In this document: piece after piece, positions 9,301 through 36,620 of the stretch
How the letters are laid out: every line of letters begins with the position of its first letter
How positions within the stretch are numbered: position 1 is the first letter of the stretch
From: Nitrospirota bacterium
Lineage (GTDB): Bacteria > Nitrospirota > Nitrospiria > 2-01-FULL-66-17
DNA length: 40,380 nt
Assembly (NCBI GenBank): GCA_040757335.1
Contig: JBFLXB010000003.1
Location: forward strand, 13,519-53,898
Direction of reading: 5' to 3'
Position numbers and translations under genes: made by a program
The notes under the pieces: model-generated
Database searches by the model: none
Told to the model about the DNA's origin: nothing
What the model saw: only the letters and a program-made list of their open reading frames with translations

Positions 9301-12300
9301 ATACAAGTCCACTTAGTGGATCCGACGTTCTGCTCATTCGATTCCAATCCGATGGTAGCCTTGATACCACCTTCGGGCTGCAAGGTATGGTGATTACTGA
9401 TATTGGAGGCGTTCACAATATAGCCACTGCACTGGCGTTGCAGCCAGACGGAAGACTTGTAGCGGCTGGAGGAATCTGGAATCCATCTAGCGCAGAATAT
9501 GGTGGGCTGCTACTGAGGTATAACCAGGATGGGAGCCAAGATGCTACATTCGGTTCAGGTGGTGTGGTAATAGCTGGCGGAGTTGTTGGGCTGGCTTACG
9601 CCGTAGTTGTGCAGCCGAACGGTAGAATTGTGGGTGCCGGAACTACGACTGGTGGCACCGGCGACTTTGCAATAGTCCGGTATGACCAGGATGGTAGCCT
9701 GGATTCCACTTTCGGCTCGCAAGGTAAAGTGATTACTGACATAGGAGGTTCAGGGGATGCAGCGCAAGCCTTAGTATTACAGCCAGACGGCAAGATAATC
9801 GCGGCAGGATCTGGTTTAGGTCCGAGTCCTGATTTTGCCTTGGCGCGCTATCTTGGCGACTCGGTGACAATCAACAGCCCGCCGGTGGCCAACCCGCAAT
9901 CAGTCTCAACCCCGGAAGACACCGCGCTCGCGATCACGCTGACCGGCAGCGACCCCGACGGCGACCCCCTCACGTTTGCCGTCTCGGGCGGTCCCTTAAA
10001 TGGAGTGCTCTCGGGTATCGCGCCGAACCTCACCTACACGCCGACCGCCAACTACAACGGCCCCGATAGCTTCATGTTCGAGGTGAACGACGGCACGCTC
10101 ACTTCGGCCCCGGCCACAGTCTCGATCACTGTCACGCCCATGAACGATCCACCGGTTCTGGCGGCGATCGGGAACAGCAGTGTGAACGAGGGGCAGCTCG
10201 TGCAGTTCACTGTATCGGCCACCGATGTCGATGGTAATCCTCTGACCTTCACGGCCACGGGTCTGCCCCCAGGAGCGACGTTTAATCCAGCCACGCAAAG
10301 CTTCAGCTATACGCCGGGCTTTGGAGTGTCTACATCGACCGCCAACAGCTTCTTCGATGTGTTCTTTGAAGTGAGCGATGGACAAGGCGGCACGGCTAGT
10401 GAGACCGTCCGGATCACGGTCGTCGACGTTCCACAACTGGTCTCGATTGAGGTGACTCCGGCCAACTCCGTCATCAACGTAGGCCAGACCCAGCAGTTCA
10501 CGGCGACGGGGACCTTTGACGATGGCTCCACGCGGGTGTTGACCTCCGGGGGGACGGCCGGAACGTGGCAGCCCACGGGGTCGATGGGGACGGTGCGAAC
10601 TACTCACACAGCGACCCTCCTACCTAATGGGAAAGTTTTGATCGCCGGGGGAGCCGGCCCTCTGGCCTCAGCGGAGTTGTATGATCCGGCCACAGGGATC
10701 TTTACTCCCACGGGTTCGATGGGGACGGGGCGATATGCGCACAAGGCGACCCTGTTGCCTAACGGGAAGGTCTTGATCACGGGGGGGAGACTGGATAATT
10801 CCGCCGGGAGTGAGCTGGCCTCAGCGGAGTTGTATGATCCGGCCACGGGCCTGTTTACTGCCACGGGGTCCATGGGATCGATCCGATCTGATCACACAGC
10901 GACCCTTCTGCCCAATGGGAAGGTCTTAATTACGGGGGGATCGTATTACATCTATTTCCATGCCACGGCGGAGGTGTATGATCCGGCCACAGGGGTGTTT
11001 ACCCCAACGGGGTCGATGGTGGCGACCCGAGCTCATCACACGGCAACCCTCTTGCCCAATGGGACGGTCTTGATCACGGGGTGTTGTGGCTCTGCCACGG
11101 CGGAGGTGTATGATCCGGCCACGGGTATCTTTACCGCCACGGGGTCGATGGTGGCGGCCAGAGCTTATTGGCACACGGCGACCCTTCTGCCAAACGGGAA
11201 CGTCCTGGTTGCCGGGGGGATGTATCCGCAGGACGATGGTACTGCCACGGCAGAGGTGTATGATCAGGCCATGGGGGTCTTTACACTCACGGGATCCATG
11301 GGGACGGGGCGAATGTATCACACAGCGACCCTCCTGCCCGACGGGGAAGTCTTGATTGCCGGTGGTCATAATATCGCTGTCACTCATGGTACGGCGGAGC
11401 TCTATCATTCAGTCACGGGAAACTTTAGCGCCACAGGGTCGATGGGGACAGGGCGAACGGCTCATACAGCAACCCTCCTCCCCAACGGGAAAGTTTTGGT
11501 GACAGGAGGGGGCACTGCCACGGCGGAGCTCTATGAGCTGCCTGCCTCTTCGGTTGTCTGGAACAGCAGCAACACCACTGTAGCCACACTTGACGCAAAT
11601 GGTCTGGCCACCGGCCTCACGCCTGGCACCACGACGATCACGGCCACCTCGGGCAGCATCAGCGGGAGCACGACCCTCCGTGTGAATGCCCCGCCAGTGG
11701 CGAACGCGGGGTCGGATCAGGTGGTCGAGGCGTCTTCGGCATCCGGAGCCTCGGTGAACCTGGATGGCTCAGCCTCCAGCGATCCCGATGGCGATGCCCT
11801 CACGTGTACGTGGGAGCTGGGCGGGGCCGGCCCTGCTGCTTTGGGTTGTCAGGTCACGGTGACGATCCCCTTGGATAGCTTCACCGTGACGCTGACCGTG
11901 ACCGATGCTTTTGGCGCCACGGCCACCGACACCGCTCAGATCACGGTGCAAGACACCACGCCGCCTACGATCACGGTCACTCAGAACCCTCCGCCCAACG
12001 GCAACGGCTGGAACAACACCGATGTCACTGTGAGCTTCACGGCCGCTGACGCGGTATCAGCCGCCACGTGTACTCCGGCGTCCGTCGCACTCACCACCGA
12101 GGGGGCCGGTCAGACAGTGAGTACCACCTGCACCGATGCCGCTGGTAATAGCGCAACCGCGAACCACACTGTGAATATCGACAAGACTGTCCCCACCGTC
12201 GCGTTCAGCGCCCTGACCCCCGCGCCCAATGCCGCGGGATGGAACAGCACCGACGTGACGATCGCGTTCACGGCGTCTGACGGCCTCTCGGGCCTCGACA

Positions 12301-13034
12301 CGGTCAATCCGACCAGTCCGCTGTCGTTCACCGTAGACGGCTCAGGCCTCACCCAGAACGTCACGGTGACCGACCGCGCCGGCAACATTGCGACGGTGAC
12401 GTCACCAGTCGTGAATCGCGATACGCTGGAGCCCTCCGGCTCGATCGTCATCGAGGGCGATCAAGCGTGGGTAGGCCGGAGGAACGTCACGTTGACGTTG
12501 ACCTGCACGGATGGTACGAGCGGCTGCAGCCAGATGCAGTTCAGCAACGACAACGTGACCTTCACGGCCCTGGAAGCGTTCGCCACGAGCAAGGCCTGGA
12601 CCCTTACCTCAAGCAATGGGCTCAAGACCGTGTACGTCCGCTATACGGATACGGCCGGCAATGTGTCGCCTAGTCTGTCGGACACGATCATGGTGGACGG
12701 CACGAATCCGGTGCTGAGCGGGGTGGCGGATTCTCCGGATCCGTTCCGGCCTAGCAGGGGGGAGACCACGACCATCGAGTTTACGCTCTCGGACAACTTG
12801 TCGGAAACCTGTTCCATTGAAATGAGGATCTTTTCGTCCTCCAACGTGCTCGTCAGAATCCTCACCAGTCCGGCATCCTGTCCCGCGGGTGGGGCCGTGG
12901 GGTCCCTGGTGTGGGATGGGCGCAACGGTGGAGGGGTGATCGTGCCGGACGACACCTACACGTACCGGATGCGAGGGACCGACAATGCCCAAAACGGGTC
13001 GAGCCTGGTGAGCGGGACGGTGAAGGTCAGGTAG
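6369..13034 (+). CDS. Giant secreted multi-propeller protein (SBBP, delta-60, kelch, BIG2, PKD)
   Basis: About 2221 residues. The ATG at 6369 is chosen because it opens a signal peptide (hydrophobic FGIGVLLPSLVLF, then ESRAQ). An in-frame ATG at 6249 has a better ribosome site (GGGGAGGG, 6236-6243) but would put about 40 residues before the signal. Modules by nucleotide are about eight SBBP repeats (GNVYVTG..DYVTVKYD..G.QQW, 6450-7680), about eight INA.G.VVW...LYDG units (7715-8690), seven delta-60 repeats (8700-9865), two cadherin-like Ig modules (9880-10425), a BIG2 domain (10436-10545 and 11548-11685) split by seven kelch-like HTATLLPNGKVLI.GG units (10555-11535), PKD (11689-11955), three Ig-like modules and a FlgD-like tail. 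It is probably an extracellular or surface protein; ligand unknown. The last ~430 residues match the upstream gene, so the two are paralogues by module shuffling. Confidence 0.9.
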   Translation: MPIFRWFAFGIGVLLPSLVLFHGESRAQVVEDWVARYNGPANGEDYVARKIVVDSLGNSYVTGTSWSGTTNQIATIKYGPSGTQLWVATYSGVGGANAASLAVDSSGNVFVTGTSNGDYVTLMYDTNGNLQWATTYDGGGVDQVSTVVPDGFGNVIVTGTSSNGTNNDYLTVKYDSFGNQQWAVPYDGGGEDQVGTLFGLPYGLAVDGLGNVVVHGTSFNGIDDDFVTVKYDPSGNQLWARPYHDGGTEQGTAVAVDALGNVYVTGAGTGGVGSEDYVTVKYDASGTLQWANRYDNGSWDYGLNVVVDNTGNVYAHGVSSTGTGGDYATVKYDASGVQQWVARYDNGFDDGSSAIALDSLGNVYVSCSSSNGFDYDYATVKFDGSGVQQWVIRYDTGLEDDGVAVALFEDGFGNVSVFATGSSSNGANYDYATVKYSQTSLGVSYTTSQLTDDTDNQTSPQINAQGKVVWVNGVGDVVLYDAGTATILGASAGLPPQLNAQGKVVWVNSAGQIVLYDGGATTILWTGAGIYEPPQINAIGQVVWSDWDGTSDYEIYFYDGTATTQLTNNALDDHAPKLNASGQLVWVSFDGTDEEIMLFNGSGTVPLTDNALNDSTPEINDAGKVVWVQDDGAGGEILLYDGAGTLQLTNNDFPDFYPQINAAGQVVWIGLNATGRTLVYLYDGSTTIHLTGPGGLDYEPKINSSGQVVWSSQTFSNFHVVVYDGNTTIQLTDNALAALAGNPQVAINDAGTVVWAGFAGTDSEIFMATPTVSGPVGPGDLDASFGISGIVTTDFGGSDHATEVLLQPDGKVVAVGHITGFDFALARYNPKGSLDTTFGSAGKAVLGNVFQASAAVLQTDGKIVAAGWGSGSIGGGPDLALVRFNSNGSLDTTFGVQGIVVTDIGSTGSTARALVVQPDGKLVVAGDANGNVALVRYNQDGSLDTTFGAQGIVIADAGIAFSIVLQPDAKLVVAGYRYTSPLSGSDVLLIRFQSDGSLDTTFGLQGMVITDIGGVHNIATALALQPDGRLVAAGGIWNPSSAEYGGLLLRYNQDGSQDATFGSGGVVIAGGVVGLAYAVVVQPNGRIVGAGTTTGGTGDFAIVRYDQDGSLDSTFGSQGKVITDIGGSGDAAQALVLQPDGKIIAAGSGLGPSPDFALARYLGDSVTINSPPVANPQSVSTPEDTALAITLTGSDPDGDPLTFAVSGGPLNGVLSGIAPNLTYTPTANYNGPDSFMFEVNDGTLTSAPATVSITVTPMNDPPVLAAIGNSSVNEGQLVQFTVSATDVDGNPLTFTATGLPPGATFNPATQSFSYTPGFGVSTSTANSFFDVFFEVSDGQGGTASETVRITVVDVPQLVSIEVTPANSVINVGQTQQFTATGTFDDGSTRVLTSGGTAGTWQPTGSMGTVRTTHTATLLPNGKVLIAGGAGPLASAELYDPATGIFTPTGSMGTGRYAHKATLLPNGKVLITGGRLDNSAGSELASAELYDPATGLFTATGSMGSIRSDHTATLLPNGKVLITGGSYYIYFHATAEVYDPATGVFTPTGSMVATRAHHTATLLPNGTVLITGCCGSATAEVYDPATGIFTATGSMVAARAYWHTATLLPNGNVLVAGGMYPQDDGTATAEVYDQAMGVFTLTGSMGTGRMYHTATLLPDGEVLIAGGHNIAVTHGTAELYHSVTGNFSATGSMGTGRTAHTATLLPNGKVLVTGGGTATAELYELPASSVVWNSSNTTVATLDANGLATGLTPGTTTITATSGSISGSTTLRVNAPPVANAGSDQVVEASSASGASVNLDGSASSDPDGDALTCTWELGGAGPAALGCQVTVTIPLDSFTVTLTVTDAFGATATDTAQITVQDTTPPTITVTQNPPPNGNGWNNTDVTVSFTAADAVSAATCTPASVALTTEGAGQTVSTTCTDAAGNSATANHTVNIDKTVPTVAFSALTPAPNAAGWNSTDVTIAFTASDGLSGLDTVNPTSPLSFTVDGSGLTQNVTVTDRAGNIATVTSPVVNRDTLEPSGSIVIEGDQAWVGRRNVTLTLTCTDGTSGCSQMQFSNDNVTFTALEAFATSKAWTLTSSNGLKTVYVRYTDTAGNVSPSLSDTIMVDGTNPVLSGVADSPDPFRPSRGETTTIEFTLSDNLSETCSIEMRIFSSSNVLVRILTSPASCPAGGAVGSLVWDGRNGGGVIVPDDTYTYRMRGTDNAQNGSSLVSGTVKVR

Positions 13035-22346: not shown

Positions 22347-23267
22347 ATGACGGCTCCCAACGACTTAAAGACCATTCTGGGAAAACTCCAGTTTCCCGAC
22401 GATGCGCAGGTCATGCGTCAGATCGTGGATCAGACGCTGCAGGTCAAGCTGCGCATGGGGCGGATCAAGCGCAAGATCGTGGTCATGAGCGGCAAGGGCG
22501 GCGTGGGCAAAAGCATGTCCACCGTCAACCTCGCGCTCGGGTTCGCACGCAAGGCCGACCGGGTCGGCGTGTTGGACGTGGACCTCAATGGCCCGTGTGT
22601 GCCCAAGATGCTGGGCATCGGGGGGAAGCGGTTCGAGCTGACGCCCGAGGGAGCCCTCCCGCCCCTCGGCCCGCTGGGCATTAAAGTCGCCTCCATGGAT
22701 TTCTTCCTCCGCGAACACGCGCCCGTGCGGTGGAAGGGGTCGATCGAATTGAGTCCGGTCTGGTTGGGCATGTTGGAAATGAACGTTATTCGGGAATTGT
22801 TGGCGGACATTGCGTGGGGGGAACTCGATATCTTGCTCGCCGATCTCCCTCCAGGGGCCGCCGCGGACAAGCCGCCGGCCCTGGCCAATTTTCTTCCGGA
22901 TCTTGACGGCGCCGTGATCATCACCACCCCGTCCGAGGTGACCACCGACGTGGTGCGAAAATCCGTCCTCTACGCGCGCGACGTGGGGATTCCGGTGATC
23001 GGCCTCATCGAGAATATGAGCGGGTATCACTGTCCTCAGTGTGGACACGAAAGCGATCTGTTTGCCGGCAGCGTGGAAGCGCTGGCCGCGGAGTTGGACG
23101 TGCCGCTGTTGGGCAAGATCCCGTTCGATCGGGACCTGAGCCAGCGATGCGACAGCGGTAACCCCTTGACCGATTCCAGTCATCCCATGGCCCGCCGATT
23201 TGACGAGATCGTCCAGCGGATCGTCGACTGTCTGAATTTCAGGGAGATCGTGGCGCAACGGTTGTAG
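22347..23267 (+). CDS. Mrp/NBP35 (ApbC) family Fe-S carrier ATPase
   Basis: 306 residues. The deviant Walker A motif is GKGGVGKS (residues 49-56), followed by LDVDLNGPCVPKMLG and DILLADLPPG. The cluster-bridging cysteines are in ENMSGYHCPQCGHES (Cys229, Cys232). Proteins of this family bind a bridging [4Fe-4S] cluster as dimers and hand it to apo-proteins in the cytoplasm. The N-terminal MIP18-like domain found in many Mrp proteins is absent. It is followed after 35 bp by the zinc-ribbon PCP_red gene, and conserved linkage to that island would suggest cluster delivery to an enzyme there. Confidence 0.92.
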   Translation: MTAPNDLKTILGKLQFPDDAQVMRQIVDQTLQVKLRMGRIKRKIVVMSGKGGVGKSMSTVNLALGFARKADRVGVLDVDLNGPCVPKMLGIGGKRFELTPEGALPPLGPLGIKVASMDFFLREHAPVRWKGSIELSPVWLGMLEMNVIRELLADIAWGELDILLADLPPGAAADKPPALANFLPDLDGAVIITTPSEVTTDVVRKSVLYARDVGIPVIGLIENMSGYHCPQCGHESDLFAGSVEALAAELDVPLLGKIPFDRDLSQRCDSGNPLTDSSHPMARRFDEIVQRIVDCLNFREIVAQRL

Positions 23268-23302
23268 CCCGCGCGTTGTGCGGGCGTGGTTTGGAGGACG
23301 CG

Positions 23303-24007
23303 ATGAAGTTCGTGTGCATGAACTGCGAGACCTTCATGCTGTTTCAGAAGGTCGAGAAACCCGGCGAAGGGTCGCTCGGCGTGGAGTTTCTCTGTCCGTC
23401 GTGCAAGGCAAGGTTTTCGATGGTCACCAACCCCGGCGAGACCCAGATGGTCCAAGCCTTGGGCGTGAAAATCGGCGGACGCACCACGGCTCCCGAAGCG
23501 TTTGAATTGACCCGCGGCACGCTCAAAGAAGGCGCGGAGTGTCCGGTTCCCGGCGCAGCCGCAATGGCGGCTCCTGCGATGACCAGCGGAGCAGTCACGA
23601 GCGAGAGCGGGGCCGGGAGTTGTCCCTTTTCATCCATGGTGGCATCCATGGGCGCGGGTGGCGCCGAACAATCAACCGCGCTGGAATGGTCAGCCGAAGC
23701 TCTCGAGCGATTGGCCAAGATCCCGGACTTCGTGCGTCCGACCGTCAAGATGGAGGTCGAAGCCTATGCCCGCCAAGCAGGCGAGACGTTCGTGACGCAG
23801 GCCATGCTCGATAAATATAAAACCGCGCCCGGAAGCCTCACCTGGTCTTCCGAAGCCTCCAAGCGCCTGGAGAACATTCCCTTCTTCATCCGCCCGATGG
23901 CCAAAAAGGAGATCGAGCGCCTGGCGCGGGAAGAGGGCCGAACGGAGGTGACCGTCGAGGTCATGGACCACGCCAAGACGGCATTCGCGAAATTTATGGG
24001 CGGCTAA
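23303..24007 (+). CDS. Zinc-ribbon protein with two PCP_red repeats
   Basis: 234 residues. GGAGG (23292-23296) precedes the ATG. Residues 5-34 hold a zinc-ribbon-like pair, CMNC and CPSC (Cys5, 8, 31, 34). A linker (about 60-125) is Gly/Ala/Ser-rich and carries two further cysteines (ECPVPG, SCPFS). Two helical PCP_red repeats follow: LEWSAEALERLAKIPDFVRP (about 128-172) and LTWSSEASKRLENIPFFIRP (about 180-227). PCP_red is the small domain at the C-terminus of the BchB/ChlB subunit of dark-operative protochlorophyllide reductase. Here the catalytic part is missing, so the domain probably binds a tetrapyrrole or another protein. The function is not known. Confidence 0.82.
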   Translation: MKFVCMNCETFMLFQKVEKPGEGSLGVEFLCPSCKARFSMVTNPGETQMVQALGVKIGGRTTAPEAFELTRGTLKEGAECPVPGAAAMAAPAMTSGAVTSESGAGSCPFSSMVASMGAGGAEQSTALEWSAEALERLAKIPDFVRPTVKMEVEAYARQAGETFVTQAMLDKYKTAPGSLTWSSEASKRLENIPFFIRPMAKKEIERLAREEGRTEVTVEVMDHAKTAFAKFMGG

Positions 24008-24035
24008 GGGCCGGTTCTTGAGAGATTTGCTTGCT

Positions 24036-24177
24036 CAGAAATCCCCTTCCCCCCTTGCGGGGGAAGGATGGGATGGAGGCTACCAGGCCCGATGATGGCA
24101 TGCCCCCGGTCGATGCGGACACCGTCTCCGTAGGCGCCCCCACCCTGCCCCTCCCCCGCATGGGGGGAGGGAAATCT
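24036..24177. repeat. GC-rich double-hairpin intergenic element
   Basis: This fills most of the 204 bp between the two PCP_red-related genes. Hairpin 1 (24045-24067) pairs CCTTCCCC with GGGGAAGG. Hairpin 2 (24150-24170) pairs CCTCCCCC with GGGGGAGG around GCAT. The flanks GGATGGGATGGAGGC and GGCGCCCCCACCCTGCC are themselves near-inverted, so the whole unit is one imperfect dyad. It may act as an attenuator or be a mobile repeat. No gene is seen in it. Confidence 0.7.
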
Positions 24178-24211
24178 CAAGCTGAGGTGAGCCAACGGCT
24201 CATGGTCACTA

Positions 24212-24982
24212 ATGGAATTGGCTCCACTTACACGGTCCTCTGACGCTATTTCCTTTATCAAGTCGCTGGAACAGGAAATCTTGGCGCACGAGGCCGTGCG
24301 GCATCCGTTTCTCGCGCGGTTCGCTTCGGAGCCACTGACCGTGGCGCAGGTTCGCGCGTTCGGGCTCCAGCACTATCAGCTCGTCAAAGTCTTTACCACC
24401 TATATGACGAATCTGCTGCCGAAGATTCCGGATCGCGACGCGGCGGAGTTGTTTCGCCACGTGTTCGACGATGAGTTCGGAGCGGTCAGCGGGCGATCCG
24501 CTGCGGTGGGCCAAGCCACGATCTTTCGCAGCCACGTGCACCTGTATCGCGATTTCTTGTCCGCGCTCGGGGTGCAAGAAGAGGAGTGGGGTCGGGTCAA
24601 GCCTTTGGCCGAGACCGAGGCGTACATCAGGGGCCACCTCGCGCTGACGCGGGACGCGGATTTCCGAGTCGGCCTCGGCGCCGTGGGGCCGGGCCATGAA
24701 TTTTCCATTCCCACCATGTTTCAGTCATTGGTCGCGGGGATCCGGCGCAATACCGACTTGAGCGACAAGCAGATCGAGTACTTCACGTTACACATCGAAG
24801 AAGACGTGGAGCACGCCGAGGTCTTCAATTCGCTGATCGCGCGCCACGCCGGGACCGAGGAAGGGCGGTCGCTCATTCGCGAGGGCGCCATGCGTTCCCT
24901 GAAACGGCGCACGCTGTTCTGGGACGGGCTGTCTCGACACGTGTTTGGCCCCGTGCCCAGCGGAGAAGGAGGACGAGCATGA
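24212..24982 (+). CDS. Heme-oxygenase-like fold (TenA/PqqC/CADD-type) protein
   Basis: 256 residues, all helical. It opens SLEQEILAHEAVRHPFLARF and includes LQHYQLVKVFTTYM, typical of TenA/PqqC/CADD relatives. Helix residues YFTLHIEEDVEHAE give an H-x3-D-x2-H set (His194, Asp198, His201), and Glu88, His107/109 and Glu163 could complete a di-metal site as in heme-oxygenase-like diiron oxidases. It may therefore be an Fe-dependent redox enzyme; the substrate is unknown. The ATG at 24212 has no clear ribosome site. Its stop overlaps the next start as ATGA, so it is translated with the four-repeat PCP_red protein. Confidence 0.82.
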   Translation: MELAPLTRSSDAISFIKSLEQEILAHEAVRHPFLARFASEPLTVAQVRAFGLQHYQLVKVFTTYMTNLLPKIPDRDAAELFRHVFDDEFGAVSGRSAAVGQATIFRSHVHLYRDFLSALGVQEEEWGRVKPLAETEAYIRGHLALTRDADFRVGLGAVGPGHEFSIPTMFQSLVAGIRRNTDLSDKQIEYFTLHIEEDVEHAEVFNSLIARHAGTEEGRSLIREGAMRSLKRRTLFWDGLSRHVFGPVPSGEGGRA

Positions 24983-25968
24983 GCCAATCGTCCGACACCC
25001 AGATCGTGTGGAGCGAAGCCGCGATGGAGCGGCTGAAACTCGCCCCGATTTTTTTGCGCGGCATGGTCAAGAAGCTGGCCGAGAAAAAGGCCCGCGAGCT
25101 GGGGATTGCGGTGATCACGGCGGAACATCTGGCCGAGTGGAAGAACACCTCGATGGGCGGCATGGGCGGGGAGGCGGGTCTGAAGGAAGCCGCGGACCAG
25201 ATCGCCAAGGGACAGCTCCCGTGGACCCAGGCGGCCAAGCAGCGCCTGGCAACCGCGCCCGGGTTCATGCAGGACATGGTCCGGCGGATCGCGGAAGACG
25301 TCGCGCGCGAACGCGGACACATGGAGGTCAACGTCGAGTTGCTGGAGAAGGTCGAAGAGCTCGGCGCGCTCGACGACGCGAAACCGCGTGAAGAAATGCC
25401 GTGGACCGAGGGCGCCACGGCCAAGCTGATGAAAAAGGTGGAAGGCACACCGCCCATGGCCACCGAATTCGTGGTCCAGATGCTCAAAGCCGACGCGGAG
25501 GACCTGGCGCGCAGCCTGGGGGTGTCCGAGATGACGGAAGACGCGCTGACCAAGGTTTGGGAAACGCCGCAGAGCGACGTGCGCTGGAGCGAAGAGGCGT
25601 GGGCGCGGCTACAGACCTCGCCGGATTTCGTGCGCAGCGGCATCAAGAAGGCCGCGGAACGGCGGGCGCGCAAGGCGGGCGCCACGGTCATCACCTCGGA
25701 ACTGCTGACCAAGTTTCGCAACGAGGCCATGATGAAGGCCGTGATGCGGATCCGCAAACTGGGCTACACCGAGCTCACGTTCGACGCGTTCGACAAGGCC
25801 AAACAAGAGGTCAAACGCCTCCAGGGCAATGAACAGGCGGAGAGCCGATTGGAAGAGATCCGCGCGTACATGAAGAAAAAGCCCCATGTCGGCGTGCTCG
25901 GCGAGGAACTAATGACGCGTTTCCGGAAATACCTCAGAGGCGAAGGAGATCTCAAGATTGGTTCTTAA
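24979..25968 (+). CDS. Protein with four PCP_red repeats
   Basis: 329 residues made almost wholly of tandem units that start with a W[ST]..A...L motif: IVWSEAAMERLKLAPIFLR (about 10-54), LPWTQAAKQRLATAPGFMQ (80-126), MPWTEGATAKLMKKVEG (140-195) and VRWSEEAWARLQTSPDFVR (202-246). The third is divergent. The C-terminal ~80 residues are helical and charged, with a partial unit (LGYTELTFDAF). It is known only as a PCP reductase family protein; no catalytic cluster-binding part is present. It overlaps the heme-oxygenase-like gene by 4 bp. It may be a scaffold or tetrapyrrole carrier for that enzyme. Confidence 0.85.
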   Translation: MSQSSDTQIVWSEAAMERLKLAPIFLRGMVKKLAEKKARELGIAVITAEHLAEWKNTSMGGMGGEAGLKEAADQIAKGQLPWTQAAKQRLATAPGFMQDMVRRIAEDVARERGHMEVNVELLEKVEELGALDDAKPREEMPWTEGATAKLMKKVEGTPPMATEFVVQMLKADAEDLARSLGVSEMTEDALTKVWETPQSDVRWSEEAWARLQTSPDFVRSGIKKAAERRARKAGATVITSELLTKFRNEAMMKAVMRIRKLGYTELTFDAFDKAKQEVKRLQGNEQAESRLEEIRAYMKKKPHVGVLGEELMTRFRKYLRGEGDLKIGS

Positions 25969-26003: not shown

Positions 26004-26124
26004 CAGGCTGCTCAAAAAGTTCCGGCTGCAAGGCCGCAGGGAGGAGGAAACCGGAGCGTACTGGGTCGTACGTGAGGATTTCCGACGACCGAGAACGCCG
26101 CAGACGGACTTTTTCAGCAGCCTG
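26004..26124. repeat. Palindromic intergenic element B
   Basis: Left end CAGGCTGCTCAAAAAGTTCC (26004-26023) is nearly the inverse of the right end GGACTTTTTCAGCAGCCTG (26106-26124). The centre on the minus strand is CCTCACGTAC, a 6-nt loop, GTACGCTCCGG (plus 26051-26077), the same as element A. It ends 13 bp before the nikR start, so it forms that gene's leader. No gene is seen in it. Confidence 0.82.
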
Positions 26125-26137
26125 CTGGAGCGCTCCC

Positions 26138-26572
26138 GTGCATGAGAGCGCCGACCACGGCGGCCCACTCCAGCGCTTCGGCGTGTCGATCGAATCCCAC
26201 CTGCTGGAGCGCTTTGATCGCGTCATCGAGCAAAAAGGCTACACCAACCGCTCCGAGGCAATCCGCGACCTGATCCGCGATTCCCTCGTCGAACAGCAGT
26301 GGGACGAAAACCGCGACATTATCGGGACCATCACCATTGTCTACGATCACGAGGTCCGCGAGCTCTCGGACACGCTGACGGACCTCCAGCACCAGCACCA
26401 GAAACTCTTCCGCTCCACCCTCCACATCCACCTGGACGAGCACAACTGCCTGGAAGTGCTGGTAGTCCAGGGCAAAAGTAAAGACGTGAAGTACGTGGCC
26501 GATCGCCTGATCGGCACCAAGGGCGTCAAGCACGGCAAGTTCACGATGACGACGACCGGGAAAGATCTCTAG
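26138..26572 (+). CDS. nikR: Nickel-responsive repressor NikR
   Basis: 144 residues from GTG 26138, with GGAG (26127-26130) at 7 bp. The N-terminal ribbon-helix-helix is [20 protein letters not shown] followed by [16 protein letters not shown]. The C-terminal ACT-like domain carries the square-planar nickel ligands at the family positions: a His in DLQHQHQK (85 or 87), then His96, His98 and Cys104 in [13 protein letters not shown]. The tetramer binds DNA when nickel is bound and shuts down uptake genes. A dyad at 26699-26727 upstream of the next operon is its likely target. Upstream sequence is element B, so it may lack a normal promoter of its own. Confidence 0.93.
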
Positions 26573-26679: not shown

Positions 26680-26709
26680 TTGACACGGAAGGTGCAGTGG
26701 TGCTATTTA
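26680..26709 (+). promoter_or_regulatory. Strong promoter for the porin/SBP operon
   Basis: Consensus -35 TTGACA (26680-26685) and -10 TATTTA (26704-26709) with 18-bp spacing. It lies in an AT-rich stretch unlike the surrounding GC-rich DNA. Confidence 0.7.
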
Positions 26710-26727
26710 TTTTACATACGTAGCACC
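26699..26727. promoter_or_regulatory. Candidate NikR operator
   Basis: GGTGCTA (26699-26705), 15 bp, TAGCACC (26721-26727): a perfect 7-bp dyad that covers the -10 and the start site. Its layout is like the GTGTTAC-N14/15-GTAACAC sites described for a Geobacter NikR. One extra half-site, TAGCAC, lies at 26661-26666. With nikR just upstream, nickel-dependent repression of the porin/SBP operon is a reasonable inference. Confidence 0.6.
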
Positions 26728-28043: not shown

Positions 28044-29024
28044 ATGTTCTCGATCAGGTCGTGTCAAAGGGTTCTCAGCCTCACGGTACTCGCCGCGGTG
28101 ATCGTCGCAGCGCCGACGCTTGCGGCGGACACGGGGAAGAAGATCAAAGTGCTCACCACCGTGGCGCCGGTCACGAATATCGTACGCAACGTGGCCGGTT
28201 CGAACGTGGAACTGCATGGGTTGATACCGGAAGGATCCGACTCGCACACGTTCGAGCCGGTGCCCAGCGACGTGAAGTACATCGCCCAGGCCGACCTGAT
28301 CATCGTCAACGGTTTGCACCTCGAAACACCGACCATGCACCTGACCGAGGCGAACAAGAAGAAGTCGGCCATGGTGGTCCGGTTGGCCGACCAGACGATC
28401 TCGCGCAAAGAGTGGGTCTTTGATTTCTCGTTCCCGGAAGATAAGGGCGATCCCAACCCCCACCTGTGGCTCAATGTGGCGCACGCCATGAAGTACGCGG
28501 AGCTGGTGCGTGAAGCTCTCGTGAAGGTTGATTCCGCCAACACGGCGGCCTACGATGCGAACACCGCGGCATACCTGGCCAAGCTCAAGCAGCTTGACGA
28601 GGCGATCCTGGCCACAATGAAGACGATCCCCGAAAGAAATCGGAAACTCGTGACGTACCACGACTCGTGGGCGTATTTTTGTCCGCGTTACGGGTGCAAG
28701 GTGATCGGCGCGGTCCAGCCCTCGGACTTCGCCCAGCCCACGCCCCAGGACATGGTGGCGTTGATCAAACAACTGAAAGCAGAAGCCGTACCCGCGATTT
28801 TCGGTTCCGAAGTTTTCCCCAGCAAGGTGTTGGATCAGATCGGCCGAGAGGCGGGGGTAAGGTTCATCGACACGTTGCGCGACGATGATTTGCCAGGAGA
28901 ACTCGACTCCCCGGAACATACCTACGTTGGCATGATGAAGGAGAACGTCGAAACCATGGCGCGGGTGCTGGGGGGCGACTCGTCCTTGATGAAGAACATC
29001 GATCCTGCCAACGTGGGACGCTGA
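28044..29024 (+). CDS. ZnuA/TroA-family metal-binding periplasmic protein (module 1)
   Basis: 326 residues. GGGGAGG (28031-28037) precedes the ATG. A signal peptide ends at about residue 28 (PTLAADT). Family metal ligands are in place: His68 (SHTFEP), His140 (NPHLWLN), His206 (TYHDSW) and Asp276 (FIDTL). The His-rich loop of zinc-type ZnuA is absent. A pair of cysteines in YFCPRYGC (213, 218) is not typical. ABC ATPase and permease genes do not follow: the next gene is convergent, with stops 4 bp apart. It may feed a transporter encoded elsewhere or act as a metal buffer. Cognate metal is uncertain (Ni by context; Zn or Mn by family). Confidence 0.88.
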   Translation: MFSIRSCQRVLSLTVLAAVIVAAPTLAADTGKKIKVLTTVAPVTNIVRNVAGSNVELHGLIPEGSDSHTFEPVPSDVKYIAQADLIIVNGLHLETPTMHLTEANKKKSAMVVRLADQTISRKEWVFDFSFPEDKGDPNPHLWLNVAHAMKYAELVREALVKVDSANTAAYDANTAAYLAKLKQLDEAILATMKTIPERNRKLVTYHDSWAYFCPRYGCKVIGAVQPSDFAQPTPQDMVALIKQLKAEAVPAIFGSEVFPSKVLDQIGREAGVRFIDTLRDDDLPGELDSPEHTYVGMMKENVETMARVLGGDSSLMKNIDPANVGR

Positions 29025-29028
29025 ACTC

Positions 29029-30237
29029 TCAGTAAGCCAGGACTACACCCACCACGCCGGTGTAGGTCTTTTCAGGATGGTTCGCGTCGACGGGCAGCAA
29101 GTCGTGCGTGTACTCGGCGAGAAACTTCACGTTTCGGAGGTGGTAGTACGTGACGTTTGCCGTCAGGGTACGACGGTCGAGCGCGGGCAGATCATTCGAT
29201 GAGACCTGGTTGTACAACAGCACACCCGTCCACCGGTCGCTGAAATGGGTGTCGGCTTCGATGAATCCGCCGCTGTGATCGACGGCGGGTTCGCCAGGCG
29301 TGAAGGTGGGGTGGTCGTCGTGTCCGAAGATCCAGTTGGCCCGTAGGTCGGCCCGCCGGCCGAGCGGCACGGACAGGTCAGGACCGTACCGGTAAAAGCG
29401 GTTTGATTGGCTAGTGAGCAGGTCCTGATCCTTGCCGTGATAGCCGAACACACCCAGCGTCATCCAGGGTAGGTCTGCGGCAATCCGTGCCATCTGGTTC
29501 TTGTAGGCATTCGTATCGAAATTCCCGTTGTCCAATTGTCCCAGCCCATTGCCGTTGGTTACGCCCGCCATCAGAAACGCCGGGCCGGCCGACCACGTGG
29601 TCAGCGCGCCACGGTCGTAGGTCAGTTGGAATCCCGGCGCGGCGTCTCCGGTCGCAGTGTTCACTACGTTGGTTGTGTAGATCGAGATGTCTTGAAACGT
29701 CAGGCGTTGCTCCCGCGGGTAGAACGTGTCCATGACCTGGAACTGGCCCACCACCGCGTCCCAGTCCTGGTTGCCGAGGTTGTTGAAATAGAGAAACGCG
29801 TCTTCGACCCCCACGACTTCACCGCCCTCGGAAGCCAGAAAGTAGAAATAGTACGTGAGGTCCTTGGCCAGATAACCGGTGCTGAACAATTTGACAACAA
29901 GGGGAGATTCGAAGTCCGTGGTCACCGCGGTGTCGTTACGCGCGCGAAAGTACCCGTCCGCACGGATCCCGAACATCGGGCTGGTCGGCAGATTGAGCAG
30001 GGGATCTCCGGTCTCGACCGCCTTCCCTTTGGGATCCTCGCCGGGAAACTGGTACCCGTTGCCCGCGTAGTCCTGCCCGAAGTCGTTGAGCTTGGGGAAC
30101 GCCACGTGGCACATGACGCAACTGACGTTGTACCGCCTTGCGAAGCCGGGGTTGGCTTCGGCCAGTTCCGCACACGCTCCAAGAGATGCGATCCCAATCA
30201 GGACACATTGGGCGAACCGCCGAAATCCATTCATCAT
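29029..30237 (-). CDS. Monoheme c-type cytochrome fused to an outer-membrane barrel (Cyc2-like layout)
   Basis: 402 residues. After a signal sequence (about 1-28) comes a single heme-c site in NPGFARRYNVSCVMCHVAFP (CXXCH at 40-44), then KLNDFGQDYAGNGYQFP. The rest (about 75-402) is a beta-barrel-like sequence with alternating aromatic strands, ending TYTGVVGVVLAY. One N-terminal heme plus a porin domain is the layout of Cyc2, the outer-membrane Fe(II) oxidase. The FAR...C..CH..FP.LN.FG..F..NGY pattern resembles that heme region. It may pass electrons across the outer membrane, but plain porins with this motif also exist. It has its own promoter (30278-30307). The start is ambiguous between adjacent ATGs (30237, 30234). 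Confidence 0.8.
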   Translation of the reverse strand: MMNGFRRFAQCVLIGIASLGACAELAEANPGFARRYNVSCVMCHVAFPKLNDFGQDYAGNGYQFPGEDPKGKAVETGDPLLNLPTSPMFGIRADGYFRARNDTAVTTDFESPLVVKLFSTGYLAKDLTYYFYFLASEGGEVVGVEDAFLYFNNLGNQDWDAVVGQFQVMDTFYPREQRLTFQDISIYTTNVVNTATGDAAPGFQLTYDRGALTTWSAGPAFLMAGVTNGNGLGQLDNGNFDTNAYKNQMARIAADLPWMTLGVFGYHGKDQDLLTSQSNRFYRYGPDLSVPLGRRADLRANWIFGHDDHPTFTPGEPAVDHSGGFIEADTHFSDRWTGVLLYNQVSSNDLPALDRRTLTANVTYYHLRNVKFLAEYTHDLLPVDANHPEKTYTGVVGVVLAY

Positions 30238-30277
30238 TTCATCATTACATCAGGTAGGGATGATTCACGTGCGTAGC

Positions 30278-30307
30278 ATCTTAGGTTCGTGTTGCGATCC
30301 ATGTCAA
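30278..30307 (-). promoter_or_regulatory. Promoter for the cytochrome-barrel gene
   Basis: On the minus strand: -35 TTGACA (30307-30302), 18-bp spacer, -10 TAAGAT (30283-30278), leader about 35 nt. An imperfect dyad (30259-30280) overlaps it. That dyad ends in CGTAGCATC, close to the CGTAGCACC of the NikR-like operator. Confidence 0.6.
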
Positions 30308-30355: not shown

Positions 30356-30385
30356 TTGACGACGGCAGCCCACCCGTAGTATGGT
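30356..30385 (+). promoter_or_regulatory. Promoter for the small exported protein and czc genes
   Basis: -35 TTGACG (30356-30361), 18-bp spacer, -10 TATGGT (30380-30385). The ATG at 30393 is only 7 bp after the -10, so the message would be leaderless. A perfect dyad, GCCCACC (30368-30374), 8 bp, GGTGGGC (30383-30389), overlaps the -10 and looks like a regulator site. Confidence 0.5.
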
Positions 30386-30392
30386 GGGCGCC

Positions 30393-30878: not shown

Positions 30879-30926
30879 GCCGTCTGTTCGGATCGAGCGT
30901 GCGCGGACTCGCGCAGGAGCGTGTGG

Positions 30927-32225
30927 ATGAAGCGCGTTGGGACAGCCCTGTGGTTGGTGATTGTTCTCGCGGCAAGTGGAACCGAGCCATCGTTCGGAGC
31001 CCGCGATGAGCCCGCGACGGTGTTAACTGTGGACCGCGCGGTCGAATTGGCTCTGGAGCGCAACATGGATGTACTGGTGAGCCGGTTCGGTCTGGATCGG
31101 GCAGAGGCGAATCGACTCCTCGCCGCGGCGTACCCGAACCCCGAGTATTGGTTCAACCAGGAAGGCCTGTCCGCCGGATTTGAGCGCGAGGCCAACAATG
31201 TTCGCTACCACCGGATCGAACAGGTCATCGAGGGATTCGGGAAGCGGCGACACCGGGCGGCCGCCGGCGAGGCCGGCGTCGAAGAGGCGCGTGCGGAGTT
31301 TCAGGACACGGTACGCCTTCTGATTTTTGAGCTCAGGAAAACGTTTTACGAGGTCCTGCTGACGCAAGCGAACGCGGAAACAGCCGCCGCCAACCTCCAG
31401 CGGTTTCGTGAGGTCGTGGCGATCACCGAGTCCCGCTTCGAGCAGGGCGAGATTCCGGAGGCGGATGTGATTCGCACCAGGGTCGAGGCGCTTCGCTTCG
31501 AAGACGACGCGAGGTCGGCCGGGGTGGTATTGGCCACGGCCAAGAGTCGGTTGGCCCTCCTGATCGGTCTGGACGGGCCGGTGGAGGTCCAAGGCTCATT
31601 GGAACGCGACCTGGATCAGCTGCTTGCGGAGCCCGTGTCCTCGGCCGATCGCCTGGTCGAGCGGGCATTGGCCGCAAGACCGGATCTGGCAGCTGTCCAG
31701 GCGAGCCAGCGTCGGGCCGAAAGCGAAATGAGGCGGAATCGCGCGTTGCGCTACCCCGACCTGACGGTGGGGTTGGAGTCCGAGTACAGCGCGGGGGTGC
31801 AGGGCGCGGATGATCTCTCGACGTTCGGGTTCGGTCTGGGTGTCACGCTCCCGATCTGGAATCGGAATCGAGGCGGGATTGCCCTGGCTCAGGCCGATCT
31901 TAGGCAGGCTGAAACGCGGGTGCAGCAGCAGGAGCGCGTGATCCGGGCCGAGATCGAGACCGGGCTGGAGCAACTCCGGGTGAGCGCCGAGCGGGTCCGG
32001 GCGGTGCGCTCGCAACTACTGCCGCAAAGTCAGGAGTCCCTAACGATCGCCAAGGCGCTGTACGAGGAAGGGGCCACCGGCCTGCTGCAACTGCTCGACG
32101 CGCAACGCGCCTTCAACGAGACCCAGCTTCGCGCCCACCAGATCCTTTTCGAATACCACGTCAACCGGTGGCTGCTCGAACGCGCCGTGGGAGCCGAGTT
32201 GGTGACGCTGGGAGCGGCACCATGA
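30927..32225 (+). CDS. czcC: Outer-membrane channel of a heavy-metal RND efflux system (CzcC-like)
   Basis: 432 residues. The ATG at 30927 is favoured over the GTG at 30921 because AGGAG (30915-30919) then sits 7 bp away. A signal peptide spans about 1-24. The TolC/OEP repeat pattern is clear: two similar halves with long helices and the strand region FGFGLGVTLPIWNRNRGGI, ending LLQLLDAQRAFNETQLRAHQ. It forms the tunnel of the CzcCBA pump in the outer membrane. The stop overlaps the ATGA at 32222, and czcB's likely start is 48 bp further on. Confidence 0.9.
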   Translation: MKRVGTALWLVIVLAASGTEPSFGARDEPATVLTVDRAVELALERNMDVLVSRFGLDRAEANRLLAAAYPNPEYWFNQEGLSAGFEREANNVRYHRIEQVIEGFGKRRHRAAAGEAGVEEARAEFQDTVRLLIFELRKTFYEVLLTQANAETAAANLQRFREVVAITESRFEQGEIPEADVIRTRVEALRFEDDARSAGVVLATAKSRLALLIGLDGPVEVQGSLERDLDQLLAEPVSSADRLVERALAARPDLAAVQASQRRAESEMRRNRALRYPDLTVGLESEYSAGVQGADDLSTFGFGLGVTLPIWNRNRGGIALAQADLRQAETRVQQQERVIRAEIETGLEQLRVSAERVRAVRSQLLPQSQESLTIAKALYEEGATGLLQLLDAQRAFNETQLRAHQILFEYHVNRWLLERAVGAELVTLGAAP

Positions 32226-32272
32226 CTGGGCCGATGACGATATCAATTGAAACCGCAACCAAGGAGCAGTCT

Positions 32273-33475
32273 ATGTGGAACAGAAACCGCCTGAGCGTCG
32301 GGCGGGGGATGACGTTGGCGGCCGTTGCCGGCGTGTTTGCGCTGGTCGTGCTGGGGTGTTCGGAATCCGGCGACACGCACGCCGCGGAGTCCGATCCGGG
32401 CAGATCCGATGTCGGAGGCGCCAGGGTGCTTCGGATAACGCCAGAGGCCATTGCCGTGATCGGGCTCAGGACCGAGACAGCCGCACGCGGCCGCCTTCGA
32501 CTGCCCTTGCAGGTCAGCGGGCGCGTGACCTACGACGAGAACCGGTTCGCCCAAGTCAGCGCCCCCATCGCCGGCCGGGTCCAAAGCTTTCGCGCCACGA
32601 TCGGCGATCGGGTGAAGCAGGGCGAGCCGCTGGCTTTCATCGAAAGCCCGGACATCGGTCGGGCGCAATCGGATTACCTCCGCGCCATGGCCGATCGTGA
32701 CGTGGCGGAGCGCGCGTTCGAGCGGGCCAAGGTCTTGTTCGAGAAGAAGGGCGTAAGTCGCGGGGAGGTCCAGCGCCTGGAGGGTGACGCGCTGCGCGCC
32801 CGAGCTGCAGTCCAGGAAGCCAAACACCATCTCAGCATCCTGGGCTTTTCAGACGAGGCCGTGGCGAAGTTGGGCGAGACCGGTACGGCCCAGACCACAA
32901 TGCCCTTGGTGTCGCCCCTGTCTGGCGTGGTCGTCCGCCACGAGGCGTTTACGGGGGCGGGAGTCGAGCCAACGCAGATGCTGTATCTGGTCGCTGATCT
33001 TTCTGAGGTGTGGGTCGAAGCGGACGTCTACGAACGAGACATCGCGCGTGTGAAACCTGGACAGGACGCCGACATTCGCGTCCAGGCGTATCCGGACCGC
33101 GTGTTTTCAGGCCGCGTGGAGACGCTCGGCCGTGCGCTCGACGAGAAGACGCGTACGCTGATGGTGCGGGTCGTGGTGCCGAACCGCGATGAGGCGCTCA
33201 AACCCGGCATGCTGGCGCAGGTCGGTCTCCTCACGGACGCGGGTGAAGAGGCGCTGACAGTGTCGGCCGACGCGGTGCAGCGCGACGGCGAGCGGTCCCT
33301 CGTGTTCGTGGAGCAGGCGCCGGGCGTCTTTGCGATCCGTGAAGTCACGGTCGGACGGACCGCCGGGGGTCGCGTCGAGATCCGGACAGGCGTCGACGCC
33401 GGAGAAAAGGTGGTGACCACCGGGAGCTTTCGGCTCAAATCCGAGATGAAGAAGACCGAGATGGAGGCGGGCTGA
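32273..33475 (+). CDS. czcB: Periplasmic adaptor lipoprotein of heavy-metal RND efflux (CzcB-like)
   Basis: 400 residues. The ATG at 32273 is chosen for AAGGAG (32261-32266) and the signal that follows; upstream in-frame ATGs at 32222 and 32234 lack these. The signal ends FALVVLGC (Cys29), a lipoprotein site. The HlyD-type order is present: a barrel-sandwich half (SAPIAGRVQSFRATIGDRVKQGEPLAFI), a helical hairpin (DVAERAFERAKVLFEKKGVS), the second lipoyl half (PLVSPLSGVVVRHEAF) and a beta-barrel (GQDADIRVQAYP). It links CzcA to CzcC across the periplasm. There is no N-terminal His-rich metal-binding extension, unlike some CzcB. Confidence 0.9.
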   Translation: MWNRNRLSVGRGMTLAAVAGVFALVVLGCSESGDTHAAESDPGRSDVGGARVLRITPEAIAVIGLRTETAARGRLRLPLQVSGRVTYDENRFAQVSAPIAGRVQSFRATIGDRVKQGEPLAFIESPDIGRAQSDYLRAMADRDVAERAFERAKVLFEKKGVSRGEVQRLEGDALRARAAVQEAKHHLSILGFSDEAVAKLGETGTAQTTMPLVSPLSGVVVRHEAFTGAGVEPTQMLYLVADLSEVWVEADVYERDIARVKPGQDADIRVQAYPDRVFSGRVETLGRALDEKTRTLMVRVVVPNRDEALKPGMLAQVGLLTDAGEEALTVSADAVQRDGERSLVFVEQAPGVFAIREVTVGRTAGGRVEIRTGVDAGEKVVTTGSFRLKSEMKKTEMEAG

Positions 33476-33476
33476 C

Positions 33477-36400
33477 ATGATCGACCGTCTCATCACGTTT
33501 GCGCTCAAGCAGCGCCTCCTCATCTTGCTGGCGGTGGCGATTCTGATCGGCGGCGGGATCCTGGCCTTTGCGCGCCTTCCGATCGACGCCTTCCCGGACG
33601 TCACCAATATCCAGGTTCAGGTCATCACCAAAGCGCCGGGAATGTCGCCGGTGGAAGTCGAGCAGTTGGTGACCTTCCCCTTGGAAGTGGATCTGATGGG
33701 GCTTCCCAAGAAGACCGAGTTGCGGTCGATCTCCAAATTCGGCATTTCGGTCATCACCGTGGTCTTCGAGGACGGTACGGACATCTATTGGGCGCGGCAG
33801 ACCGTGCTCGAGCGGTTTCTCCAGGCCAAGGAAAAGCTCTCGCCAGGCGTGGAATCCATGCTGGGGCCGATCAGCACCGGATTGGGAGAGGTGTATCAGT
33901 ACCGGTTGCACGGGCCTGACTACGATCTGACCGAGCTGCGCACGCTCCAGGATTGGGTGGTCAGACCATTGCTGCGGACTGTGCCCGGCGTGGCGGACGT
34001 GAACAATCTCGGCGGGTTTCCCAAGGAGTACCAGGTCTTGGTGGATCCCGACCGCCTGAAGAACTTCGGACTCACGCTGCGGCAGGTCTTTGAAGCCGTG
34101 GAACGTAACAACGCCAATGTCGGCGGTGGGTTCATTCGCCACCAGGAAGAGCAGTACGTGGTTCGGGGCCTGGGGATGATCCATACCATCGAGGACATTA
34201 AGAATATCGTGGTCGCGTCGGAGCGCGGTACGCCCATCTTTCTCCGGGACGTGGCCGAGATCCGGCTTGGGTCGCGGACTCGGTACGGCGGGGTGACATC
34301 CGAAGGCAAAGGCGAAGCGGTCGAAGGGTTGGTGCTCATGCTGATGGGGGGCAACAGCCGCGAGATCGTCACCAACGTCAAGGCCAAGGTCGAGGAGATC
34401 AACCGCGTGTTGCCCCAAGGCGTCTCGATCGTCCCGTTCTACGATCGAACCGAATTGGTCAATCGCGCGCTCTGGACCGTGGAAAAGGCCCTGCTGGAAG
34501 GGGCGGTGCTGGTGGTGGCGGTGTTGATCCTGTTTTTGGGCAATCTCCGCAGCGCAGTGATCGTGTCGCTGATGCTGCCGCTTTCGGTCCTGTTCACGTT
34601 CGTCCTGATGAAGGGCCTGGGGCTCTCGGCCAACCTCATGTCACTGGGCGGGCTCGCCATCGGAATCGGGATGCTGGTGGACGGCGCCGTGGTCATGGTC
34701 GAGAACATCTACCGGCATCTGGCCGACAAACAGGCCCGGGGCGGCTCGACCCTTCACCACATCCTGGAGGCCGCGCGCGAGGTGGGTCGCCCGGTGCTGT
34801 TCGGCATCCTCATCATCATCGTGGTGTTTCTGCCCCTGTTCAGCCTCACCGGTGTCGAGGGTAAATTGTTCAAGCCGCTGGCCTTCACGGTCGCGTTCGC
34901 GATGTTGGGCTCGCTGATCCTCTCCCTGACGCTGGTGCCGGTGCTCTGCTCGTTGCTGCTGGCCGCGGGGGTCAAAGAGCGGGAACCGTGGCCGGTGCGC
35001 AAGGTGCGGGAGCGGTACCGACGGGTGCTCGATGCCGCGCTCGCCCGTCCGAAGGCCCTGGTGGGCGGCGCCGTGGCCTTGCTGGCGGGCGCGCTCGCGC
35101 TGTTTCCGTTCATCGGCAAGGAATTCGTGCCTACCCTGGACGAGGGCGACGTCGTGATCAACGTCACGCGGCTGCCCAGCATTTCGCTGGACGATTCGCT
35201 TCGGATCAACGGCGAGGTCGAACGGGCCTTGATGCAGTTCCCGGAGGTCAAGACCATTGTGACCCGAACCGGCACCGACGAGATCGGCGTGGACCCCATG
35301 GGACCGGAGTTGTCGGACATTTTCATCATCCTCAAGCCTGAACGCGAATGGACGGTGGGAACTAAGGATGAGTTGAAGGAGAAGATGCGGGAAGCGATGG
35401 ACCGGATCCCGGGCATTGCCTACGTATTCTCCCAACCCATCCAGATGCGCGTGGACGAAATGCTAGCCGGCGTGCGCGCACAGATCGCGGTGAAGGTCTT
35501 TGGCGAGGATATGGACGTGCTGGCGGACCAGGCCGGCCGCATCGAACGAGTACTCCGAGGCATCCCCGGTGCGGTGGACGTGCGGACCGAACAAGTGTCG
35601 GGCCAGTATTTTCTGGAAGTCGAGGCCGACCGGCAGGCGCTCGCCCGCTATGGGATCAACGTGGCGGACCTCAACGAGGTGGTGGAGACCGCGATCGGGG
35701 GGAAGGTGGCCACCGACGTGGTGGAAGGCCAGCGGCGGTTCGGGGTGCTGGTGCGGTTTCCAGAGGCGGTGCGTGGAGATGTGCAGTCCGTGGAAAACCT
35801 GGCGGTGAGCGCTCCGGACGGCGCTAGAATCCCGCTCAAACAACTGGCGACGATCCGCGTGGCAGAGGGACCGGTGCAGATCAACCGCGAAGAGGGCAGC
35901 CGGCGGATTGTGATCGAAGCCAACGTGGAAGGTCGCGACATCGCGTCGTTCGTGGCCGAGGGACAGCAGCGCATCGCAGAATCCGTGGCGCTTCCGCCGG
36001 GATACTACGTGACGTGGGGCGGCCAGTTCGAAAATCAGCAGCGCGCCATGCGTCGCCTGGGAATTGTGGTGCCGGTGGCCCTGTTCTTGATTTTCCTGCT
36101 GCTGTTTACCGCATTCAATAAATTGCGGCACGCGCTGCTGATTCTGGCCAACATCCCGTTCGCGTTGATCGGCGGTATCGTGTCGCTCTTTCTCTTCGGC
36201 CTGTATCTGTCAGTGCCCGCGTCGGTGGGGTTCATCGCGCTGTTCGGGGTGGCGATCCTCAACGGCGTGGTCCTGGTCTCCACCTTCAATCAGTTGCGGC
36301 AAGAGGGGATGGCGCTGGAGGAGGCGGTCCGTATCGGGTCCGAACGGCGGCTGCGGCCGGTGCTCATGACCGCACTGGTCGCGAGCCTCGGGCTCGTGCC

Positions 36401-36620
36401 GTTGCTCTTGGCCACCGGCCCGGGCTCCGAGGTGCAGAAGCCCTTGGCGGTGGTGGTCGTCGGCGGTCTGATCACATCGACCGCTCTGACTCTGCTGGTC
36501 TTGCCCGCCTTGTACCGGTGGGTCGAGGGGCGGCGCGAGCGAGAGTACGGGCCCGACGGCACGGTGCCCGGCGCGTCCGAGGCCGATCTCCCCGTTGAGA
36601 GCGAGGGGGTTGCGCGATGA
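33477..36620 (+). CDS. czcA: Heavy-metal RND efflux transporter (CzcA-like)
   Basis: 1047 residues, the full HME-RND length. It starts MIDRLITFALKQRLLILLAV and has the first periplasmic loop PIDAFPDVTNIQVQV. SQPIQMRVDEMLAGVRAQI and AVKVFGEDMDVL match the CzcA rather than the CusA pattern. In TM4, GIGMLVDGAVVMVEN keeps Asp402 and Glu409 (equivalent to CzcA Asp408 and Glu415), but the first acidic residue of DFG is Gly396. It is a proton-driven exporter of divalent cations (Zn, Co, Cd or Ni) through CzcBC. It begins 1 bp after czcB with GGAGG upstream, and its TGA overlaps the P-II gene start. Confidence 0.94.
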   Translation: MIDRLITFALKQRLLILLAVAILIGGGILAFARLPIDAFPDVTNIQVQVITKAPGMSPVEVEQLVTFPLEVDLMGLPKKTELRSISKFGISVITVVFEDGTDIYWARQTVLERFLQAKEKLSPGVESMLGPISTGLGEVYQYRLHGPDYDLTELRTLQDWVVRPLLRTVPGVADVNNLGGFPKEYQVLVDPDRLKNFGLTLRQVFEAVERNNANVGGGFIRHQEEQYVVRGLGMIHTIEDIKNIVVASERGTPIFLRDVAEIRLGSRTRYGGVTSEGKGEAVEGLVLMLMGGNSREIVTNVKAKVEEINRVLPQGVSIVPFYDRTELVNRALWTVEKALLEGAVLVVAVLILFLGNLRSAVIVSLMLPLSVLFTFVLMKGLGLSANLMSLGGLAIGIGMLVDGAVVMVENIYRHLADKQARGGSTLHHILEAAREVGRPVLFGILIIIVVFLPLFSLTGVEGKLFKPLAFTVAFAMLGSLILSLTLVPVLCSLLLAAGVKEREPWPVRKVRERYRRVLDAALARPKALVGGAVALLAGALALFPFIGKEFVPTLDEGDVVINVTRLPSISLDDSLRINGEVERALMQFPEVKTIVTRTGTDEIGVDPMGPELSDIFIILKPEREWTVGTKDELKEKMREAMDRIPGIAYVFSQPIQMRVDEMLAGVRAQIAVKVFGEDMDVLADQAGRIERVLRGIPGAVDVRTEQVSGQYFLEVEADRQALARYGINVADLNEVVETAIGGKVATDVVEGQRRFGVLVRFPEAVRGDVQSVENLAVSAPDGARIPLKQLATIRVAEGPVQINREEGSRRIVIEANVEGRDIASFVAEGQQRIAESVALPPGYYVTWGGQFENQQRAMRRLGIVVPVALFLIFLLLFTAFNKLRHALLILANIPFALIGGIVSLFLFGLYLSVPASVGFIALFGVAILNGVVLVSTFNQLRQEGMALEEAVRIGSERRLRPVLMTALVASLGLVPLLLATGPGSEVQKPLAVVVVGGLITSTALTLLVLPALYRWVEGRREREYGPDGTVPGASEADLPVESEGVAR

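Follow-up and report, generated by a model that had tools for sequence, protein, structure and literature searches.

The window, i.e. the whole stretch of DNA analysed in this study, comprises 40,380 nucleotides from a Nitrospirota bacterium. On its minus strand it carries a gene for a Cyc2-like fused monoheme cytochrome-porin, with genes of metal metabolism on both sides. The features discussed below are as follows.

29029..30237, minus strand: Cyc2-like fused monoheme cytochrome-porin gene (open frame, gene-like GC, relatives with 46-51% identity)
30154..30237, minus strand: signal peptide, residues 1-28 (read from the sequence; hydrophobic core and A-x-A)
30040..30153, minus strand: cytochrome c domain, residues 29-66, NPGFARRYNVSCVMCHVAFPKLNDFGQDYAGNGYQFPG (profile-profile match to proteobacterial Cyc2 relatives)
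30106..30120, minus strand: heme c attachment site CVMCH, residues 40-44 (invariance among relatives; shuffle probability 1.5e-4)
29032..29991, minus strand: predicted outer-membrane beta-barrel, residues 83-402, about 16 strands (weak porin profile matches, Porin_O_P/Porin_4 homology)
30278..30307, minus strand: promoter-like site TTGACA-18-TAAGAT (consensus scan, 40 bases upstream of the start codon)
28044..29024, plus strand: context, ZnuA-family metal-binding protein gene (Pfam PF01297, E 7e-72)
30921..36620, plus strand: context, czcC-, czcB- and czcA-like genes of RND heavy-metal efflux, on the divergent side of the cytochrome-porin gene (Pfam OEP, HlyD_D23, ACR_tran; TIGR00914 CusA/CzcA)

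The ORF at 29029-30237 starts with ATG and encodes 402 aa followed by a stop codon. Its GC content at the three codon positions (0.61/0.42/0.77) is similar to that of the adjoining znuA and czcA genes and identifies the minus-strand frame as a real coding gene. The sequence-only reading had given exactly these coordinates and named no strand; the ORF is confirmed, and its strand is minus. An ORF that overlaps it on the plus strand (29536-30276) has this codon-position GC pattern in mirror image and was rejected as a shadow frame. The product carries a Sec-type signal peptide, with probable cleavage between AEA and NPGF; in relatives, ASA or AQA stands ahead of NPGF. Processing as a lipoprotein is unlikely, since C22 lies in an LGAC context and is not conserved among relatives.

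Relatives of the protein were searched for in several genome collections. Some match at E 1e-5 was obtained in 44 of 58 genomes, and close relatives (46-51% identity) were found in six of them besides the own genome. When the 270 genomes available for the class were searched with a profile, a further, more distant member (G265) was recovered, which brings the clade to eight members from five families, Manganitrophaceae among them; no additional close member was found in a phylum sample of 396 genomes. Across the seven members that were aligned, ANPGFAR, CxMCH, FPxLNxFG, NG, Q and PG are invariant. Scanning of genome contigs revealed three loci, belonging to Candidatus Manganitrophaceae, Nitrospirae and Elusimicrobia, the third match being more distant, and a viral contig scan gave no match to the clade. 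In the Elusimicrobia contig (L046:3491-7298), the distant cytochrome-porin is followed by apparent c-type cytochrome, Rieske and cytochrome b genes, an arrangement that, judged from sequence, looks like an electron-transfer cluster. The own genome (3.56 Mb, 99% complete) contains two further CXXCH-bearing homologs and one heme-less homolog. In one paralog, on contig C19 (L043:5730-7187), a His-rich stretch, EDHPHDDAAADEHPHDAEAEQKHEHG, is inserted and might bind metal.

A single heme c site at residues 40-44 had been proposed earlier, and this holds: CVMCH is the sole CXXCH among all ORFs of at least 100 aa in the 40-kb window, and the same scan revealed no cytochrome gene near the cytochrome-porin gene. 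A chance occurrence was ruled out by shuffling of the mature chain, in which CXXCH arose in 0.0145% of 200,000 shuffles. CXXCH is present in all eight clade members, and C40, M42, C43 and H44 are invariant across the seven aligned sequences; the motif and its surroundings form the best-conserved part of the clade proteins. Besides H44 and M42, the clade alignment contains no invariant His or Met, and thus the second axial heme ligand corresponds to no obvious conserved residue.

The region behind the cytochrome domain is likely to form a barrel, predicted to have about 16 strands, as judged from several weak signals. The C-terminal chain is rich in glycine and aromatic residues and ends in VVLAY, with Y402 replaced by F in relatives. 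The heme-less homolog in the own genome matches Porin_4 and Porin_O_P, and it aligns with the clade barrel (E 1.6e-7). A family profile of 27 rows gave weak matches in the PDB to PhoE (E 0.012), OprP (0.17) and OmpU (0.54), all of which are 16-strand porins; PDB searches with the single protein or a 7-row alignment returned no porin match. AlphaFold models built from four and three sequences had very low confidence (pLDDT 37 and 33, respectively); the first contains strand segments that may amount to about 16, which at pLDDT 37 is no more than a hint. A simple amphipathicity score did not cleanly delimit 16 strands. The earlier suggestion of a barrel directly after the heme site is supported indirectly by the porin profile matches, the Porin_O_P/Porin_4 homology and the C-terminal aromatic residue, whereas the AlphaFold models were unusable for this purpose. 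Cyc2 itself has been modelled on OprO/OprP (Keffer et al. 2021, PMC8406198). Weak barrel likeness links the clade to OprO/OprP and to general porins (Porin_O_P, Porin_4), but those porins have no heme domain.

According to Keffer et al. 2021 (PMC8406198), Cyc2 is recognized by AXPXFAR[Q/K][T/Y], CXXCH, PXL, a 16-strand porin and a minimum length of 365 aa. Like Cyc2 of Acidithiobacillus and Mariprofundus, the protein combines a signal peptide, one CXXCH behind it, FAR upstream, PXL downstream (CVMCHVAFPKL) and a porin-like domain, in a chain that exceeds 365 aa. It had been described as shorter than many Cyc2 proteins, which does not disqualify it, as its 402 aa lie above the published limit. 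The full signature reads ANPGFARRY-N3-CVMCH-N3-PKL; unlike Cyc2, it has FARRY in place of FAR[QK][TY], with R where Q or K is expected. The strict motif is missed by all eight clade members, which have FARKF, FARRF, FARRY or FAKRF. It is passed by 26 of the 49 cytochrome-porins collected here, so the strict filter leaves out other relatives too. Pfam and NCBIfam scans found no model matching either the cytochrome-porin or the tested proteobacterial Cyc2 relatives; empty scans are thus no evidence against kinship.

Profiles built in this study were more informative. The FARQT-type references, which are homologs of Cyc2 and not proven oxidases, are proteins on plasmids of Caballeronia, Methylocystis, Paraburkholderia, Ideonella, Acidithiobacillus and Polymorphobacter; most of their genes adjoin c-type cytochrome genes, and one also adjoins a high-potential iron-sulfur protein gene. 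The clade profile matched the proteobacterial FARQT profile in the cytochrome domain, with 52 columns aligned (E 2.2e-11); a lack of any Cyc2 profile match, named earlier as one part of a refuting condition, thus does not apply to the profiles built here. The clade differs from this proteobacterial set in having LN..G....NGYQ instead of GR.FK..GYT, and its barrel sequence could not be aligned with theirs. Near full-length homology, over cytochrome and barrel, was found to two groups of FARKY cytochrome-porins from Nitrospira and other Nitrospirota (hhalign E 8e-28 and 3.5e-35). Identity to these groups is about 20-30%, and the clade is distinct from them, with NP.FA[RK][KR][FY] and mostly CxMCH. 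In a tree of 49 rows, the eight clade members group together with 100/100 support, and the FARQT-type sequences, four of them from Nitrospirota relatives (G002, G011, G019, G028), fall in a separate division (100/99). An AU test did not reject a grouping that unites the clade and the FARQT division (p 0.38), so the deep order of the tree is tentative. A search with the FARQT profile found no FARQT member in the own genome; its best matches there were the cytochrome-porin of the window and the C6 paralog (E 3e-7 to 7e-7). G011 has a clade member at a distance of about 3 kb from a FARQT Cyc2-like gene with CHFQHYP (L036:6578-12327), and two CarboxypepD_reg proteins are encoded between them. On these sequence comparisons, the protein is a Cyc2-like fused monoheme cytochrome-porin of a distinct clade, and no strict Cyc2 by the published motif. 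The Cyc2 identity proposed earlier thus stands as to layout and kinship but not in the strict sense, given the deviating motif and the position of the protein outside the FARQT division.

The nickel and zinc surroundings noted earlier are real: NikR, an OprB-type porin, a ZnuA-type protein and CusA/CzcA-type RND efflux genes were identified. The cytochrome-porin gene is convergent with znuA, from which four bases separate it, and the gene at 30381 is transcribed divergently from it. A perfect inverted repeat (GCCCACC-N8-GGTGGGC, 30368-30389), unique in the window with no mismatches, overlaps the start of the latter gene. The consensus scan that revealed the promoter-like site saw two sites against 0.6 expected; if this site is real, the cytochrome-porin gene would be a single-gene transcription unit. 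An operon with znuA or czc was rejected, because these lie on the opposite strand and the gene has a promoter-like site of its own. A perfect palindrome, GTGCTA-N15-TAGCAC, occupies 26700-26726, in the gap that separates nikR (26072-26572) from the OprB-type porin gene (26738); it is the sole match in the genome with up to one mismatch allowed, and it is possibly a NikR operator for the porin-znuA-like unit. Control of the cytochrome-porin gene by NikR was rejected, as its promoter contains no such palindrome. At six clade loci (5-19 kb, several on short contigs), blastp against the window ORFs found no NikR, ZnuA or Czc homologs, and, close pairs excepted, these loci share no conserved neighbour. 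The metal genes are probably incidental neighbours and not partners: a separate promoter-like site and the convergence with znuA set the cytochrome-porin gene apart, and the compared clade loci have no nickel, zinc or Czc genes nearby. A component of the nickel/zinc island, e.g. a metal-responsive porin, would account for the flanking NikR, ZnuA and Czc genes, but the opposite strand, the separate promoter-like site, the missing NikR-type palindrome and the relatives' loci make it highly improbable, and the suggested metal-linked sensor porin finds no support. Elsewhere in the window, two giant ORFs (2-13034; 2059 and 2277 aa) contain DUF5122 beta-propeller, FG-GAP, Kelch, PKD and Ig-like domains, and a ParA/NUBPL ATPase, two PCP_red-domain proteins and a heme-oxygenase-like iron redox protein are encoded side by side at 22347-25968.

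The host genome encodes System I heme c attachment (CcmE and Cytochrom_C_asm). One family search of the 61-contig assembly gave no match to ResB, and System II was rejected on these grounds. Searches of the same kind found no match to MtrB_PioB, nor to the heme-copper oxidase COX1 in this 99% complete genome; two bd-like oxidase matches were found. Without a heme-copper oxidase match, the classical iron-oxidation chain seems unavailable to the host. Noncanonical bd-like oxidases have been reported in this part of Nitrospirota by a study of Manganitrophaceae, in which Cyc2 was also proposed for Mn(II) lithotrophy (PMC9040806).

Taken together, the protein is fairly likely to be a Cyc2-type outer-membrane monoheme electron conduit. 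After export, it would carry one covalent heme c on its short N-terminal domain. In a porin of roughly 16 strands, this domain may lie inside the periplasmic end or right at it. The donor would be a small reduced species, with dissolved Fe2+ as the likeliest candidate; it would go into the pore and pass an electron to the heme, and from there to a periplasmic c-type cytochrome; in this host, the electron would end at a bd-like oxidase and not at a heme-copper oxidase. Fe(II) as the donor is plausible but tentative. This conduit reading draws on the signal peptide, CVMCH and PxL, which agree with the layout that Keffer et al. 2021 (PMC8406198) give for Cyc2, on the profile match to plasmid-borne Cyc2 relatives near c-type cytochrome or high-potential iron-sulfur protein genes, and on the full-length match to Nitrospirota cytochrome-porins together with the porin kinship. 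It also fits the Ccm heme attachment and bd-like oxidases of a host in which MtrB/PioB was not found, and the occurrence of the clade in Manganitrophaceae, where Cyc2 is a proposed route to Mn(II) lithotrophy (PMC9040806). Against it stand the deviating cytochrome motif, the lack of a nearby cytochrome gene in the window, the unconserved clade neighbourhoods, the uninformative AlphaFold models and the missing heme-copper oxidase match. MtrAB, MtoAB and PioAB share the function of an outer-membrane electron conduit but differ in having a separate multiheme cytochrome and a larger barrel.

A true Cyc2 iron oxidase sustaining growth on Fe(II) would explain the identical layout, the similar cytochrome signature and the length. 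It is nevertheless doubtful, as the protein misses FAR[QK][TY] and lies outside the FARQT division, its homology to the proteobacterial set is confined to the cytochrome domain, and the host has no heme-copper oxidase match. The presence of the clade in Manganitrophaceae and other Nitrospiria families, and of a VIT1-family Fe/Mn transporter gene about 1.1 kb from the G265 member, would agree with a cytochrome-porin that serves another donor or direction, e.g. Mn(II) oxidation or electron export. This is unlikely, however: a single VIT1 neighbour is weak evidence, and among the relatives searched the clade occurs in two of six genomes of a Manganitrophaceae-like family (f9), where it is not core. 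Less probable still is that the NPGFAR[KR][FY] clade, seen here in few Nitrospiria families only, forms a separate class for a donor other than Fe(II), such as Mn(II); with no second axial His or Met conserved, its heme might have an open or unusual coordination site at the pore. The heme-less barrel relative in the own genome would suit a solute porin with a structural or sensory heme, but the CXXCH region is the most conserved part of the protein and is kept in all eight clade members, which renders that reading quite improbable.

Single-heme porins are leading candidates for bacterial electron uptake from dissolved metals, and most of their homologs beyond the few tested iron oxidizers have no function assigned. 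The clade is a small, little-described branch in relatives of Nitrospira; it escapes the strict published motif filter and is present in Manganitrophaceae and other uncultured Nitrospirota. Any such pathway in this host, with no heme-copper oxidase match, would need to end in poorly understood bd-like oxidases. The function of one clade member would tell whether the role of single-heme porins reaches beyond classical Cyc2.
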